Shown here: positions 32,275 through 38,345 of the stretch, in pieces | Layout: each line of letters opens with the position of its first letter | How positions within the stretch are numbered: position 1 is the first letter of the stretch | Source: Phycisphaeraceae bacterium | GTDB taxonomy: Bacteria; Planctomycetota; Phycisphaerae; Phycisphaerales; Phycisphaeraceae | Length of the DNA stretch: 41,288 bases | Reading direction: 5' to 3' | NCBI GenBank assembly: GCA_020831765.1 | Contig: JAFIFY010000041.1 | Span: 1-41,288 of the forward strand | Made by a program: the position numbers and the translations under genes | Notes under the pieces: model-generated | The model's input: only the letters and a program-made list of their open reading frames with translations | What the model was told of the DNA's origin: nothing | Databases searched by the model: none

Positions 32275-34392
32275 ATGCTTAAGTTTTTCAGGACTTACAA
32301 CAAATACATCCTGGCCGTCGGCATGGCACTGCTGATGGTCGCCTTCCTGATCGGGCCGGCCCTGGAGACCGCCGGTCGAGGCGCGGCCAGGGTCCAGCGC
32401 GAGGAAGCCGAAGCCAGCGCCCAGATTCAACTCCTGCAGGAGCTCGATCGCCTGGTGGTGATCCAGATGCGCGAAGGCAGTCTGCCCGAGCGCGATGGCC
32501 TGTTGCCCTTCTGGCAAGCCAGGCTGTATCTGAACCGGATGGACCTGGACCGCGATCCCACCAGCTTCCGCCTGATTCAGCGGGAGATGGAACTGCTGGG
32601 CATCGGGGCCAGTCGCGAACGCATTGCCCGGTATTTGGGGGAATCCAACATCGGTTTCGACGGCCTTCAACGCATTGCCCGTCAGCGCGGCATTCCTTTT
32701 GAAATGGCGCTGGATGCACTGGGCACGGCTCTGGCGGTGCCGGATTATTTCTACGCCGTCACCGGGTTCCGCGCCCACGAGGCATTCGCTTTCAGCCCCG
32801 AGGCGGTCAATCGGTTGCTCCACCCCGCCGCGGTCAAGCGTCTGGCCATGGATCGGGAACCCACCACCGCGATCCGCGCCCTGCCCATCCCGCTCGAGCC
32901 ATACCTGGAAGCGGCCAGCGAAGCCGTCACCGACGAAAAGATCAACGAGTTGTTCGAACGCTTCAAAGATGTTCTGCCCGGCGAAGGTCACCCGGCGGTT
33001 CTCGGGTATGCGGTCCCGCGGGCGGTCAAGCTCGAATGGATCGAGATTCCCTGGGATCAGGTCCGTCGTCGTATCACCGCCCCGGATTCGCCCCGTCGCA
33101 TCACCATGGCGGATATTCGTGATGTCTTCGAGGCCGGACCCATGGAGCGGTTCAGTGATTCGCTCGAGGGGATGCCCGCCGATTCAGAAGCCGATCCGGA
33201 CCTGTTCGCAAGCCAACTGGCGAGCGTCGAGCGTCGAATACGCCGCGAACTGGAGACCCGAGCCGCACGGGAACTGTCGCAATCCATCGGCCGCATGATC
33301 GAAGACATGGTCAAGCGCCCCGAGAATCGGCTTCAGCCGCTTGAAGGTCGCCTCACGGGATATCGCGTTGTCGATGAAGACTTCGAGCCGGTCTCGCTGG
33401 ATGAGGTTGCCCGGGAAATTCAACGTCGCGAAGGGGTGCTGCCCAACGTGGAGCGGCGCGATCGGGATTGGCTGACGCCGGAGCAGTGGGCCCGAGTCAA
33501 CGGGCTGGGCCCGGCCGCGCTGGAACTGGACACCCAGCGTGGGGTGAGCTTCGTCCAATACCTGGCTTCGACGATCGAGCTGCTCGATGGCCAGCAGACT
33601 CAGCCACCGGAAGTCACGGATCGGAACACATGGGAGTCGATCCTGACCTTCCCGCTTCAGCGCGGGCTGATCAGCCATTCTCTTCGTGATGTTGATGACA
33701 ACCGCTTTTACTTCCGCGTCATTGATGCGCGGCCGCGCAGGGCCGCCGAACTCGATGAGGTGCGCGATCAGGTCCGGGCCGATGCGATCCGTCTTGAAGC
33801 GTTCAGGTTGGCCAAGGCCGATAAGGAAACGTGGCTCAGCCGCACCCGCGAGGTCGGCATGCGGGCTCTGGCCGAGGAAAGCAATGCCCCACTGATCGCC
33901 ACCGAGCGATTCGCCCGCCGTGCCACCGAGCCCCGTTTTCGAATCGAATGGCGAGCCCAGACCGACGAACATGGCCCCCCACTTCGCCCGACACGCATCC
34001 CCGAAGGTTACTTCGACTACGAAGCGCCGCCCATTCATCCCCGGATCAATGCCGATCGCGCGCTGGTCGATGCGATCATCGATTTCGCCGAGGAAATCGG
34101 GATGCGCGGCGGCTTGGGCGTCGTTCCGCACACGGACCGGTTCACCGTGCTTCCCCACGAGGAGCAGCTTACGCTCTGGGCCGTGGAGATCACCGAGTTC
34201 TGGCCGCTGACCGACTTCGAACTCGATGATGCCGTGCTGCGCATCAGTGATCCACGTTCTGAACAGACCATGCTCACCATCCAGAGCGTGACCACGTTCA
34301 AGGGACTGGATCAGGTCTTCAGCCGTCGGGCCATCGCCAAGCGAATCGGCGAAGAACTGCCCGAGTTCACCGACGACGATGGTATTGATTGA
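32275..34392 (+). CDS. PpiD/SurA-like membrane-anchored periplasmic protein
   Basis: 705 aa from the ATG at 32275; GGAG lies 8 nt upstream. Residues ~8-32 form a signal anchor (YILAVGMALLMVAFLIGPAL), leaving a large periplasmic domain. The helical part at ~85-200 and VTDEKINELFERFKDVLPGE (~223-242) match the SurA_N-like chaperone domain of PpiD-type proteins, with the usual PRAVKLEWIEIPW strand after it. A clear parvulin-type catalytic domain is not visible in the remainder, which is charged and mixed alpha/beta. A role in folding or quality control of exported proteins is likely. The enzyme activity is doubtful. Confidence 0.7.
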   Translation: MLKFFRTYNKYILAVGMALLMVAFLIGPALETAGRGAARVQREEAEASAQIQLLQELDRLVVIQMREGSLPERDGLLPFWQARLYLNRMDLDRDPTSFRLIQREMELLGIGASRERIARYLGESNIGFDGLQRIARQRGIPFEMALDALGTALAVPDYFYAVTGFRAHEAFAFSPEAVNRLLHPAAVKRLAMDREPTTAIRALPIPLEPYLEAASEAVTDEKINELFERFKDVLPGEGHPAVLGYAVPRAVKLEWIEIPWDQVRRRITAPDSPRRITMADIRDVFEAGPMERFSDSLEGMPADSEADPDLFASQLASVERRIRRELETRAARELSQSIGRMIEDMVKRPENRLQPLEGRLTGYRVVDEDFEPVSLDEVAREIQRREGVLPNVERRDRDWLTPEQWARVNGLGPAALELDTQRGVSFVQYLASTIELLDGQQTQPPEVTDRNTWESILTFPLQRGLISHSLRDVDDNRFYFRVIDARPRRAAELDEVRDQVRADAIRLEAFRLAKADKETWLSRTREVGMRALAEESNAPLIATERFARRATEPRFRIEWRAQTDEHGPPLRPTRIPEGYFDYEAPPIHPRINADRALVDAIIDFAEEIGMRGGLGVVPHTDRFTVLPHEEQLTLWAVEITEFWPLTDFELDDAVLRISDPRSEQTMLTIQSVTTFKGLDQVFSRRAIAKRIGEELPEFTDDDGID

Positions 34393-34491
34393 TGCGACGG
34401 TTCGGTGAGCGAGAGCGCTGCGCTCGGATCATAGGCACCCGGCCAATCTGGCCCGCGGGCTCACCTTGAGTCGCCGCGCTCAGTGACCGTT

Positions 34492-35937
34492 TCAGAAATC
34501 CACCTTCCCGGCTGACGGTCGGCCTGTCCGGATCGGCCTCAGGCACCAGACCCGGTAGCTTTCGGCATCGGAAGCGTGGGAGCGGAGCACATCGGACTTG
34601 GCTGGCCGCCCCGATAAATCCCAGGTCAACTCGGCCAGATCGGCCAGAAGCGGCTTACACGTTGGATGGATGAGATACCGCACCTGGCCATCGAGGTCCT
34701 TGAGCGCTGCGTTCATCGCATCGACCCGTTCGCGGATCGGCGGGTTGCGCGCCGGCACACGCAGTCGGTGAGGCCAGCCGTGGTGATGCATCCATTGCCC
34801 GATCAGGTGGTAGCAACTCTCGGAGGTGCCCGCCCAGCGCTGGTTGCCCGCCGCATCCCCGAAGACCTCGAGCACGGGAAAGCCTGTCCTGTCCAGGCCC
34901 GGCCGCCGCGGTCCGAGCCACTGGGCCAGTTGATCGAGCAGGCCGCGCACCGTCAAGCCCTGGCCGAAGAGCACGTGTCGGACGGTAAACCGCTGGGCAT
35001 CGGTATCGAACTGGCCGACACAGCCGTGCATGCCCGGCACGATGTTGAAATCCAGGGAAAGGTGGAGCGGCAGATTGATGTCCAGCTCCAGCTTCGGATC
35101 GACGTTGTGATTGCCGAAATTTTCGTAAACCCGCGCGGCCGAGGTGTGGACGGGTTGCTGCTGGAACATGGCCTGCCAGGTGCCCGCTTCGCCCATGGCA
35201 TGGCGCATGGCCAGCAGCGCGCCCGTGCCGTACCGTGATGGCGCAAGCGCCGCCCCGATCGGCCGACCGATCATGTCGTCGCCATCGGCCAGGGCCGGCA
35301 GCCGCATCAGTTCCCACGGATCGCCATGACGGGTCAGAAGCCAGTTGGTCAGATCATCCTCATGCCATCGGGTCATGGTGACGACGATCGATGCGTTCGG
35401 CTCACCGCGCGTGTAGAACGTGGTCATGAACCATTCGATGAGCCGCTCTCGCTTCCGGGCACTGCGAGCCTCTTCCCAGTTCTTCACCGGATCATCGAGG
35501 ATCAGAAGATCAGCGCCGAATCCGGTGATCGGGCCACCCACACCCACCGCCAGAACCCCACCACCGGCCGCCGTATGCCAACGGTGAGCCGAGAGGCCCT
35601 TGCGTCGGGGCATATCGACATGGCCGAACGCGGCGAAGAAGTTGCGAAGATCACGACCGAACTTGCCCGAGGCCAGCTCAGCCCCGTACGCGCTGATGAT
35701 CACCCTTCGCTTCGGCTCCCGTGAGAGGAACCATGCGGGCGTCCAGAAGGTGGTCATCTCACTCTTGCCGTGGCGGGGAGGGGCATTGACGATCAGCCGC
35801 CCACCGCCGGCAAGCAGCAAACCGCCGATCTTGCGCCCGAGGATGCGTTGATACATCAACGGCCGCCACCGCCGCCCGCTGATCATCTGGGCGAATCGAT
35901 CCGGCGAATCAACGCCCAACGCGGTGTCATGCAGCAC
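34492..35937 (-). CDS. Phage-type terminase large subunit (TerL), apparently intact
   Basis: 481 aa. Walker A-like NAPPRHGKSE (51-60), Walker B LLILDDP (144-150) and coupling motif VVTMTRWHEDD (185-195) form the DNA-packaging ATPase. The C-terminal RNase H-like nuclease keeps three candidate catalytic acidic residues: Asp296 (LSLDFN), Asp361 (FGDAAGN) and Asp457 (SHASDAESY). In phages TerL packages and cuts DNA with a small terminase and a portal. No small subunit, portal, capsid or tail gene is in the window. The gene starts 3 nt after the stop of an ABC-ATPase/GNAT gene, so the two form one unit. It may be domesticated, a phage remnant, or part of a gene-transfer or defence device. Confidence 0.88.
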   Translation of the reverse strand: MLHDTALGVDSPDRFAQMISGRRWRPLMYQRILGRKIGGLLLAGGGRLIVNAPPRHGKSEMTTFWTPAWFLSREPKRRVIISAYGAELASGKFGRDLRNFFAAFGHVDMPRRKGLSAHRWHTAAGGGVLAVGVGGPITGFGADLLILDDPVKNWEEARSARKRERLIEWFMTTFYTRGEPNASIVVTMTRWHEDDLTNWLLTRHGDPWELMRLPALADGDDMIGRPIGAALAPSRYGTGALLAMRHAMGEAGTWQAMFQQQPVHTSAARVYENFGNHNVDPKLELDINLPLHLSLDFNIVPGMHGCVGQFDTDAQRFTVRHVLFGQGLTVRGLLDQLAQWLGPRRPGLDRTGFPVLEVFGDAAGNQRWAGTSESCYHLIGQWMHHHGWPHRLRVPARNPPIRERVDAMNAALKDLDGQVRYLIHPTCKPLLADLAELTWDLSGRPAKSDVLRSHASDAESYRVWCLRPIRTGRPSAGKVDF

Positions 35938-35940
35938 GAA

Positions 35941-37095
35941 TCACCCTCCTGGAATCAACGTCTCCCGGTGTCCACCGCGATCCGGCGCCCTGGCGTTGGG
36001 CAGATATGCAAAGGAGCTGACCACCGCCTCGCTCATCCTGCGCTCGGTCAGCAGACCCTGGTGCGGCCGCCGACGACATCGCCTGATGAATCGCCACATC
36101 GGCGAACGGCTCAGGGCACCGGCGAGTCCCGGATGCCGTGTGACGATGGAAAGGCGGTCTCCGCCAACCGTTTCGACCTCGGCCAGCATGTTCAGAACAT
36201 TGATGCCCAATCCCAGACCCTGGCAGACCGGATCGATCACCAATCGAGTAACCCGCCGGAAGCCCCGCTTGCCGGGCACCTGCAAGGTGGCGACGAAGCC
36301 GACCGGAACTCGATGCCATCGGACCAGGTAAGCGCGTGCCGATCGGTGCAGCGTTTCATCAAGGAAATGCGCCCAGGCGAAGTTCGACCAGCACCGCCGA
36401 CTGGTTCGCTCAAGCGTCAGCTTGCCGGAGGAGAATCGGTCATCGGCCTCATCGGGCTTCGGGGGCGTCCGGCGCCGGATCGTCCCGTCTCGCCCATCCA
36501 TGATCCAATCCGGAGCAAGCCAACGGGCCAGAGCGCTCCAAGCGCTGATCACAACCAATCGTGGTGTTCGATTGATCTGGGCGCCATCGGCCCGGCGGCG
36601 AACGGTGGCGATTAATCGTTGCCGCATGGTCATGGCCAGGAGTTTCGCCCTTCGTCGATCCATCGTTGAACCAAACTCATCAGCGATCCACAAACCCCGA
36701 CCCTCGATGAACATCGGCAGCAATGAAGCGAGAATCCGCTGGCCGCCACTGAGCCGGTCCGGCGGGCAGAACCACTGCCGTGGTGAACCAAGCCCGCATC
36801 GCATCAAACTCGCCACCCGCTCGGCTTCGGTCAATCCACCGGTGAGATCGAACAGCGATTCAGCCGCATGGGGCGTCGGATCGAGCCATCGCGCTTCGGG
36901 GAACACGGCACGGGCGAGCGTGGTCTTCCCGCAACCGGAAGGTCCGGTGATCAGACCCAGCGTCCACGGCCTTCCCAGCCGCGCCAGGTTCACCGCCCAT
37001 CGCTGCACTCGGGAGGGCAATCCCATGGCTTGCGCCAGCGCCCGGGCCGAAACGCTGCCGGTGATCGGATATGGCTGCTCGACGATCAACTTCAT
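35941..37095 (-). CDS. ABC-type ATPase fused to a GNAT acetyltransferase domain (COG2401-like)
   Basis: 384 aa from the ATG at 37095; GGGAAGG lies ~9 nt upstream. The ABC ATPase half has Walker A GPSGCGKT (51-58), signature LSGGQR (115-120), Walker B LWIADE (135-140) and D-loop STMD. The switch-His position reads VVISAW, with no His. Residues ~225-345 form a GNAT-like fold with motif A, RLVIDPVCQGLGLG (284-297), which binds acetyl-CoA in active members. ABC-ATPase/acetyltransferase fusions are known from archaea and bacteria as COG2401, without a settled function. The product is soluble, and no permease is nearby, so it is not a transporter. It is translationally adjacent to TerL. Confidence 0.82.
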   Translation of the reverse strand: MKLIVEQPYPITGSVSARALAQAMGLPSRVQRWAVNLARLGRPWTLGLITGPSGCGKTTLARAVFPEARWLDPTPHAAESLFDLTGGLTEAERVASLMRCGLGSPRQWFCPPDRLSGGQRILASLLPMFIEGRGLWIADEFGSTMDRRRAKLLAMTMRQRLIATVRRRADGAQINRTPRLVVISAWSALARWLAPDWIMDGRDGTIRRRTPPKPDEADDRFSSGKLTLERTSRRCWSNFAWAHFLDETLHRSARAYLVRWHRVPVGFVATLQVPGKRGFRRVTRLVIDPVCQGLGLGINVLNMLAEVETVGGDRLSIVTRHPGLAGALSRSPMWRFIRRCRRRPHQGLLTERRMSEAVVSSFAYLPNARAPDRGGHRETLIPGG

Positions 37096-37337
37096 GGTCC
37101 AAACCTTCCCGTTCGGCCGCCCCACCCTCGGCCAACGCCGGGGCGCGGCCGATCCCATCCCGGCAACCCGTGGTCCCAAACAAGAATTGCTGAAACGCGG
37201 CATTTACGCGCATCTGAAGATTCCGCTCCGATGATCCAGCGGCGCGCCATCCGGAATCCAGCGATTCGCGCGGGAGCCGGCTCCGGGTCGGTATCGAGTA
37301 GAATCGCGGCGGTTCAACCCGAAAAGGAGATCAAGAC

Positions 37338-38345
37338 TTGGATCACTACGCCCTGGTTGGCTGCGCCCACATTCACACGCCCGGATTCATTGAGAAGCTC
37401 AAACAGCGAACGGACCTGAAGGTAACCCGCGTCTGGGACCCTCGACCGGACCGCGCCGCCCAGCGGGCTAAAGAACTTGACGCCCAGGTCGCACCGGAGC
37501 CGCAAACCATCTGGAAGGATGAATCGATTCGGGCGGTGGTGATCTGTTCCGAGACCAACCTGCACGAAGAACTGGTTCAAGGCGCGGTCCAGGCGGGCAA
37601 ACACCTGTTCGTCGAAAAGCCGTTGGGCTTCGCCGGCAAGGATGCCCTTGCCATGGCCAGGGCGATCGAGAATGCCGGCCTTCTGTTCCAGACCGGTTAT
37701 TTCATGCGATCGTCCGCGAATCACCAGTGGCTCAAGAAGGAAGTGGATCGCGGCAGCTTCGGCATCATCTCCCGGGCCAGGCATTCAAACGCCCACTCCG
37801 GATCGCTGGGCCGATGGTTCGATACCGAATGGCGCTGGATGGCCGATCCGAAGATCGCCGGCTGTGGCGGGTTTGGCGATCTGGGAACCCATTCGCTGGA
37901 TATTCTGATGTGGCTGTTGGGTGATGTGAAAAGCGTGGCCGGGGATGTGAATGTGGTGGTGGACCACTACGACGGCTGCGATGAGTCGGGCGAGGCGCTG
38001 ATCAAATTTGAAAGTGGCGCTTTGGCCAGCGTGGCCGGGGCGTGGGTGGATGTGGCCAACCCGTTCACCTGCATGATCAGCGGCACCCAGGGCTACGCCC
38101 ACATTCACGACGGCAAGCTTTACGCCAAGGGTGAAGCGTTCGATGGCGAGGGCAAGAAACTGTCCATCGTCGAAGACCTGCCGCCGAGCAAGCCCCATGC
38201 GTTCGATCTTTTCCTCGATGCGGTGACCCGCGACGATTCCGAAGCCCGGGCCTTCCTGGTTTCCCCCACCGAAGCGGCGGCGCGCAGCATCGTGATGTCG
38301 GCGATATACGAGTCTTCCCGCGAACGGGGCTGGATCGAAGTGTAA
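37338..38345 (+). CDS. Gfo/Idh/MocA-family oxidoreductase
   Basis: 335 aa. The start is a TTG at 37338 with AAGGAG 8 nt upstream. The Rossmann N-terminus reads ALVGCAHIHTPGF, the family motif EKPLGF is at 93-98, and the C-terminal alpha/beta domain has GGFGDLGTHSLDILMWLLGD, which carries the likely catalytic Asp and His. The family oxidises or reduces sugars and inositols with NAD(P). The cofactor loop lacks the usual GxGxxG spacing and has a His, so cofactor preference is unclear. It is monocistronic and divergent from the ABC-ATPase/GNAT gene. The substrate is unknown. Confidence 0.9.
   Translation: MDHYALVGCAHIHTPGFIEKLKQRTDLKVTRVWDPRPDRAAQRAKELDAQVAPEPQTIWKDESIRAVVICSETNLHEELVQGAVQAGKHLFVEKPLGFAGKDALAMARAIENAGLLFQTGYFMRSSANHQWLKKEVDRGSFGIISRARHSNAHSGSLGRWFDTEWRWMADPKIAGCGGFGDLGTHSLDILMWLLGDVKSVAGDVNVVVDHYDGCDESGEALIKFESGALASVAGAWVDVANPFTCMISGTQGYAHIHDGKLYAKGEAFDGEGKKLSIVEDLPPSKPHAFDLFLDAVTRDDSEARAFLVSPTEAAARSIVMSAIYESSRERGWIEV

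Follow-up and report, generated by a model that had tools for sequence, protein, structure and literature searches.

A pair of adjacent genes was analysed in a 41,288-nucleotide (nt) contig of a Phycisphaeraceae bacterium (GenBank assembly GCA_020831765.1, contig JAFIFY010000041.1), which at its full length is referred to here as the window. The window is the entire contig C166 of genome G000, a 4.71-Mb assembly in 193 contigs with a completeness of 98.4% and a contamination of 0.06%. One gene encodes a phage-type terminase large subunit (TerL) and the other a fusion of an ABC ATPase with a GNAT domain (ABC-GNAT); both lie on the reverse strand, in the same direction, with a spacer of 3 nt between them (Table 1). 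An open reading frame (ORF) check bore out the pair, its coordinates and its spacing as given in an earlier note made from the sequence alone. That note had also described the pair as an orphan, with no other phage gene in view and ordinary flanks. The flanks are indeed chromosomal: a Pfam scan of eight neighbouring ORFs returned host-type families or no match. The isolation of the pair did not stand, as further genes of the same kind of phage lie at other loci of G000, and the pair very probably belongs to a dispersed, phage-derived set of head and packaging genes. Promoter and terminator scans over positions 34300-37400 were empty, and an Rfam scan over 34000-37800 gave no match.

The TerL assignment is supported by matches to Pfam Terminase_6N (1.8e-9) and PHROG 38 'terminase large subunit' (1.1e-52). 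Columns conserved at 80% or more among 66 other TerLs include all of P53-S59 as well as D148-D149-P150, T189-R190-W191-H192, D296 and D457. The Walker A and Walker B motifs, the TRWH motif, which we take to be the coupling motif, and two of the three nuclease acids that had been read from the sequence are therefore in conserved columns, whereas invariance of the third, D361, is limited to the four nearest TerLs. At the sequence level, the protein has both the ATPase motifs and the nuclease acids of a terminase large subunit. Of the 43 columns conserved at 90% or more, the window TerL keeps 42 (leave-one-out mean of the others, 0.95).

The ABC-GNAT protein is less well defined. Among families it matches PHROG 11143 best (8e-44; function unknown); in Pfam, ABC_tran is barely above its cut-off (26.5 versus 25 bits, over 18 residues) and Acetyltransf_1 is below it. 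The length of 384 residues is counted from an ATG, and the frame stays open to another ATG at 37203. The predicted structure is of moderate confidence (predicted local distance difference test score, pLDDT, 65.5) and, together with the PHROG match, indicates a P-loop ABC ATPase joined to a GNAT domain. Foldseek ranks TmcA first, a tRNA cytidine acetyltransferase of the ATPase-GNAT type, with a template modelling score of 0.32 on the query, which serves as an analogy only. A literature search on 'COG2401', the name applied in the earlier note, gave no match. The H-loop histidine, present in 78 of 80 aligned rows, is replaced by Trp186 in the window copy and by Tyr in the copy of G033, one of two species (with G001) that represent the sister genus. 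Because this near-invariant residue is gone, it is doubtful that the protein is a working ATPase partner for TerL.

The arrangement of the pair is frequent in phages. By tblastn, 81 of 50,697 phage records contain a relative of ABC-GNAT, and the surroundings of 12 of the 81 were inspected. An annotated terminase lies within 4 kb downstream in four of them (NHagos, LE3, Pmp13 and SL25) and a terminase small subunit (TerS) downstream in a fifth, Jace; an annotated ParB-like gene lies just upstream in four (NHagos, Jace, LE3 and Pmp13). The remaining phages of the 12 had neither a terminase nor a ParB-like gene within the stretch inspected. In IMG/VR, 581 contigs carry an ABC-GNAT relative. Among the best 80 of these 581, a ParB-like ORF lies within 1 kb upstream in 78 and a TerL within 4 kb downstream in at least 42, a lower bound given that 3 kb of downstream sequence is present in only 48 and that the TerL types counted are those with profiles. 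This search for TerL genes downstream of ABC-GNAT relatives had been suggested in the earlier note. Since ABC-GNAT so often lies just upstream of phage terminase genes, its pairing with TerL is apparently an inheritance from a phage packaging module. According to a paper on jumbo phages (PMC7824862), a GNAT coupled to an ABC ATPase has been predicted to acyl-modify a DNA base; the phage named there, Tenacibaculum phage pT24, is among the tblastn matches to the window ABC-GNAT (hit H30, 6e-18). In two other phages, Komp_PAO1_1 (L165) and phage007a_Bg4 (L167), a gene annotated as phosphoribosylglycinamide formyltransferase directly follows ABC-GNAT and is a possible base-modification partner there.

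Further head genes were located on contig C93 of G000. With the G033 portal protein as query, G000 gave one match (C93:57456-58520, ∼59-60% identical). This lone portal gene spans 57.3-58.6 kb, with a STAS-domain gene on one side and a MazG-domain gene on the other, and a possible start at C93:57309 would, by eye, restore the usual portal N-terminus. A capsid cluster lies 53 kb from the portal (C93 111.3-119.0 kb), between a galactokinase-type gene and a DUF1559 gene. Its major capsid gene has a Phage_cap_E match at C93:116004-116819 that is below the family cut-off (E 0.001), and the identification is supported by the neighbourhood, which bears out the weak match. Seven further ORFs extend the cluster to C93:111350, and all of its ORFs are on one strand. 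A structural model of a 272-aa ORF was too poor for a structure search (pLDDT 48.6).

G000 therefore holds three host-flanked loci: ABC-GNAT with TerL on C166, the portal gene on C93, and protease, decoration, capsid and connector genes on C93. The TerL, portal and capsid matches contain no stop codon, and no debris of lost phage genes is visible at the loci inspected. By their Pfam or PHROG families or viral homologues, these three can be assigned to Caudoviricete-derived structural proteins. The genome does not hold an intact prophage as far as was searched: the genes lie at three separate loci and MuF and tail tube were not found, the integrase not being among the genes searched for. GC content and codon use of the larger genes at the three loci are host-like, the outliers being a 72-aa ORF with a low GC content at third codon positions (z -3.0) and the GC-rich portal gene (z 2.1).

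Table 1. Coordinates of the gene pair and its motifs in the window, and of the capsid cluster on contig C93 of G000.
Feature	Position	Strand	Basis or remark
Terminase large subunit (TerL), 481 aa, GTG start	34492..35937	-	ORF, Pfam, PHROG, conserved columns
TerL Walker A, residues 53-59	35761..35781	-	conserved columns
TerL Walker B, D148-P150	35488..35496	-	conserved columns
TerL TRWH motif, residues 189-192	35362..35373	-	conserved columns
TerL nuclease acid D296	35050..35052	-	conserved column
TerL candidate nuclease acid D361	34855..34857	-	invariant in four nearest TerLs only
TerL nuclease acid D457	34567..34569	-	conserved column
ABC-ATPase/GNAT fusion, 384 aa	35941..37095	-	ORF, Pfam, PHROG, structure model
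ABC Walker A GPSGCGKTT, residues 51-59, kept	36919..36945	-	alignment
ABC signature LSGGQ, residues 115-119, kept	36739..36753	-	alignment
ABC Walker B D139-E140, kept	36676..36681	-	alignment
ABC H-loop position, Trp186 replacing His	36538..36540	-	alignment
GNAT motif QGLGLG, residues 292-297, kept	36205..36222	-	alignment
Protease/scaffold	C93:117716-118984
Decoration (named by position only)	C93:116965-117651
Major capsid	C93:115788-116894		59% to G033, 42% to G017
Connector	C93:115228-115650

Related genes lie together in viruses and are broken up in the sister genus. A capsid search of IMG/VR returned six contigs, five of which carry TerL, portal, MuF, protease, decoration and capsid in a single run. 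Contiguous related TerS-TerL-portal-MuF-protease runs are also found in G016 (C103), in G072 (C34) and on a short contig of G074 (C452). To judge from these runs, the ancestral arrangement was contiguous. Contig C229 of G033 carries, in order, ABC-GNAT, a TerS-like ORF, TerL (56% identical to that of the window) and portal (Pfam Portal_Mu, 1.5e-16). On G033:C45 a protease-decoration-capsid run directly follows ScpA, which means that portal and protease are parted in the sister genus too. A second portal copy of G033, with 95.6% DNA identity, lies on C185 and is followed by host genes including those for dihydrofolate reductase and thymidylate synthase. In G017, a run from TerL to the tail genes ends at a cobalamin adenosyltransferase gene, and ParB-ABC-GNAT, followed by host genes, is on another contig.

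Portal, capsid and protease were compared at the columns that are invariant in 7 or 8 reference homologues. The G000 proteins keep 42/45, 34/36 and 19/22 of these columns, respectively, with leave-one-out reference means of 0.89, 0.87 and 0.88. Like TerL, they retain residues conserved among viruses to about the same degree as the viral proteins themselves. For the two sister-genus species, the ratio of nonsynonymous to synonymous differences (pN/pS) is 0.20 for capsid, 0.39 for TerS and 0.48 for ABC-GNAT.

Identity between G000 and G033 is similar at the three loci (TerL 56%, portal 59%, capsid 59%), and the two genomes group as sisters, with support of 100/98 or better, in the trees of TerL, portal and capsid. 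The host protein GpsA has its nearest relatives in G001 and G033 (76% identity), and its tree agrees. Contrary to the host order, G016 and G072 have portals nearer to that of G000 than the G017 portal is. Given this order and the ABC-GNAT distances, the sequences support vertical descent for the pair of genera only, and not for every part of the set. The longer G000 branches in the phage-gene trees were rejected as a specific signal, as host GpsA shows the same (0.43 versus 0.09).

As to function, we see roughly even chances that this is an old, dispersed and domesticated head-packaging set working like a gene transfer agent. A caudoviricete head module would have been endogenised and dispersed in this lineage, with the window pair as its packaging-side fragment. 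The cell would retain the set since heads would still be built, and TerL would fill them with host DNA without the choice of sequence made by phage TerS and ParB, which would resemble the working of a gene transfer agent. The ABC-GNAT protein, belonging to a kind for which DNA-base acylation is predicted in phages, would be a drifting leftover. In favour of this reading are the three host-flanked loci, the contiguous viral runs, the broken-up set of the sister genus, the similar identities at the three loci, the conserved columns kept, the capsid pN/pS of 0.20, the host-like composition and the stop-free matches. The set may work like a gene transfer agent; it is not filed as one because, among the six defining traits in PMC9662315, two are seen here, namely endogenised loci and Caudoviricete-derived proteins. 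The remaining four are co-diversification with the host through mainly vertical inheritance, particles filled mostly with random host DNA, a genome that cannot be packaged completely, and delivery of the packaged DNA to other cells.

Several observations weigh against this domestication. At the 80% level, TerL keeps 61/73 columns, where the mean of the other TerLs is 0.91 and their lowest tenth 0.83. Between G000 and G033, pN/pS is 0.55 for TerL, 0.50 for portal and 0.52 for capsid, all above the 0.38 of gpsA, and one host gene compared with G001 gave 0.46; these values say little because synonymous divergence (dS) is ∼1. Protease and decoration are only 39-40% identical to their G033 counterparts. 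The G000 ABC-GNAT is 35% identical to that of G033 and 30-34% to those of other genera, and its history may differ from that of the other parts. It keeps 47 of 72 conserved columns and has lost 25, the reference mean being 0.98 in a set of 70 rows that is slightly less strict for including the G033 copy itself (L049). Judged by column retention, the head and packaging proteins look maintained and this putative DNA-modifying enzyme does not. The portal on C185, the G033 copy with a visible host flank, has an in-frame TAG. Neighbouring host genes differ between G000 and G033 in the few stretches compared, so the portal/protease break common to both may represent two separate events. The set occurs in few genomes, mostly fragmented metagenome-assembled ones (portal in 6/51, capsid in 5/301), and no upstream motif common to the three G000 loci exceeds shuffles. 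Several phage genes are also missing. MuF was found in two of six genomes searched, with none in G000, G001, G033 or G017, and tail tube in three of five, with none in G000 or G033. No short phage-type ParB was found in G000, where ParB-like matches fall in open frames of 372-466 aa, and no TerS was found beside the window TerL. Because MuF, tail tube, short ParB and a TerS beside TerL were not found in G000, DNA delivery seems doubtful, and the negative tail-tube result in G000 argues against a long tail of the ordinary kind. Two related viral contigs encode a tape measure protein (621 and 689 aa); at the corresponding position a 290-aa ORF with no PHROG match is present in G017 and a 70-aa ORF in G001, whereas G000 has none.

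Many of these observations would also be expected of a decaying prophage, in which an integrated phage lost most of its genes and rearrangement scattered intact remnants that are now functionless. Such decay would account for the genes not found in G000, the degenerate ABC-GNAT, the stop in one G033 portal copy, the different neighbours in each genus and the patchy occurrence, and we consider it a serious contender at somewhat below even chances. It fits less well with the conserved columns kept by TerL, portal and capsid despite 56-59% identity to G033, with the capsid pN/pS of 0.20 in the sister genus, with the stop-free matches, and with loci at which no debris of lost genes is seen. The conservation could instead reflect selection in phages, if the genes belonged to a still-living phage, an active element split by misassembly or recent recombination. 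Although the conserved columns resemble those of live viruses and the assembly is in many contigs, host genes lie on both sides at all three G000 loci, a similar break is present in an independent assembly and several phage genes are found nowhere in G000; this explanation is improbable.

The least probable explanation, to which we give hardly any weight, is the one raised in the earlier note, that ABC-GNAT and TerL form a two-gene device of their own for defence or DNA processing. The two genes are adjacent, co-directional and closely spaced, and both have been kept in a host context. However, a stand-alone device was rejected because phages commonly carry ABC-GNAT before terminase and further head genes lie at two other loci of G000. 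In G033, moreover, a TerS lies between ABC-GNAT and TerL and a portal follows, and ABC-GNAT is degenerate. Defence in particular found no support from PADLOC, which returned no family for TerL and, for ABC-GNAT, only mad3 (2.8e-6, over 16 P-loop residues) and mad8 (5.9e-4). The domesticated DNA-processing or gene-transfer role also raised in the note is a live possibility, given the intact TerL and the chromosomal flanks.

A TerS profile gave 12 matches on 12 contigs of G000 (E 3.7e-17 to 4.2e-9; L146-L157) and at most one match in each of six other genomes. These TerS-like repeats are units of ∼1.3-1.4 kb where complete, with copies ∼70-98% identical in DNA, and their single ORF encodes a TerS-like domain of ∼105 aa plus a low-complexity tail. 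At the left end, 7/12 copies have exactly GAAYCGCCGATCGCGC and 11/12 have it with at most two mismatches. No Pfam match was found in the five copies scanned and no PHROG match in the four scanned. It is conceivable, but improbable, that the element is a planctomycete viriform with scattered head genes, in which these dispersed repeats, as TerS-only mobile units at 12 places, would take the TerS role in trans. If true, many chromosomal sites would carry these marks for packaging by the window TerL, and the repeats would thus ride in the particles. As a suggestive side observation, the 16-base left-end motif is exact at C93:57187, ∼120 bases upstream of portal, and at C93:60173, 3 kb further. 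The site at the portal was discounted, as its weight-matrix score of 18.1 does not exceed those of other C93 sites (up to 22.4 outside 60173).

Other clusters were observed in related genomes. On G001:C17 (L035, 2879-8628), ABC-GNAT and TerS are preceded by a relative of a phage ORF of L044/L029 and by a host gene with a 57%-identical relative at C93 98.3-100.6 kb, ∼11 kb from the G000 capsid cluster. A second head and packaging cluster of ∼15 kb occurs in G030 (C1, ∼6449.6-6464.6 kb; L257, L036), G016 (C27; L030) and G002 (C148; L032), and contains ParB, ABC-GNAT, a TerS-like helix-turn-helix protein, TerL, portal, protease, capsid and further ORFs. In G030 a LexA-like regulator, with a homologue in G002, lies at one end. 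The cluster adjoins argJ and a class II aldolase gene in two genera (G016, G030) and is at another site in G002; no integrase was recognised in it, none having been specifically searched for.

Comparison with known systems places the G000 set in context. The gene transfer agents RcGTA, BaGTA and BhGTA, as described in PMC9662315 and PMC7947584, likewise consist of endogenised, caudoviricete-derived head and packaging genes at several chromosomal loci, at least five for RcGTA. The G000 set differs in belonging to another phylum, in having no tail tube found, and apparently in its TerL, portal and capsid stock. FpGTA of Faecalibacterium, according to PMC12946183, is also a small set (TerS, TerL, portal, scaffold, capsid) outside Alphaproteobacteria, but forms a single 10.5-kb operon with reported reads of packaged host DNA, whereas the G000 set lies at three loci. 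Gordonia phage NHagos, Leptospira phage LE3 and Pasteurella phage Pmp13 share ABC-GNAT just before terminase genes; they are complete phages, whereas G000 has lost ParB and the adjacent TerS and carries its head genes at other loci. The window copy has the same domain fusion as the phage proteins described in PMC7824862, but unlike those it has lost 25/72 conserved positions, including the H-loop His.

Few gene-transfer-agent-like elements are known outside Alphaproteobacteria, according to PMC12946183, and no planctomycete gene transfer agent was apparent among the papers listed in the literature searches, judged by titles and the starts of abstracts. Before an 'orphan' chromosomal terminase is called a stand-alone device, the whole genome should be searched for its lost partners. 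The relatives may represent stages of domestication, from a contiguous phage through two loci to three. If the proposed reading is true, the dispersed but still conserved set of Phycisphaeraceae would add one more independent domestication, in a different phylum.

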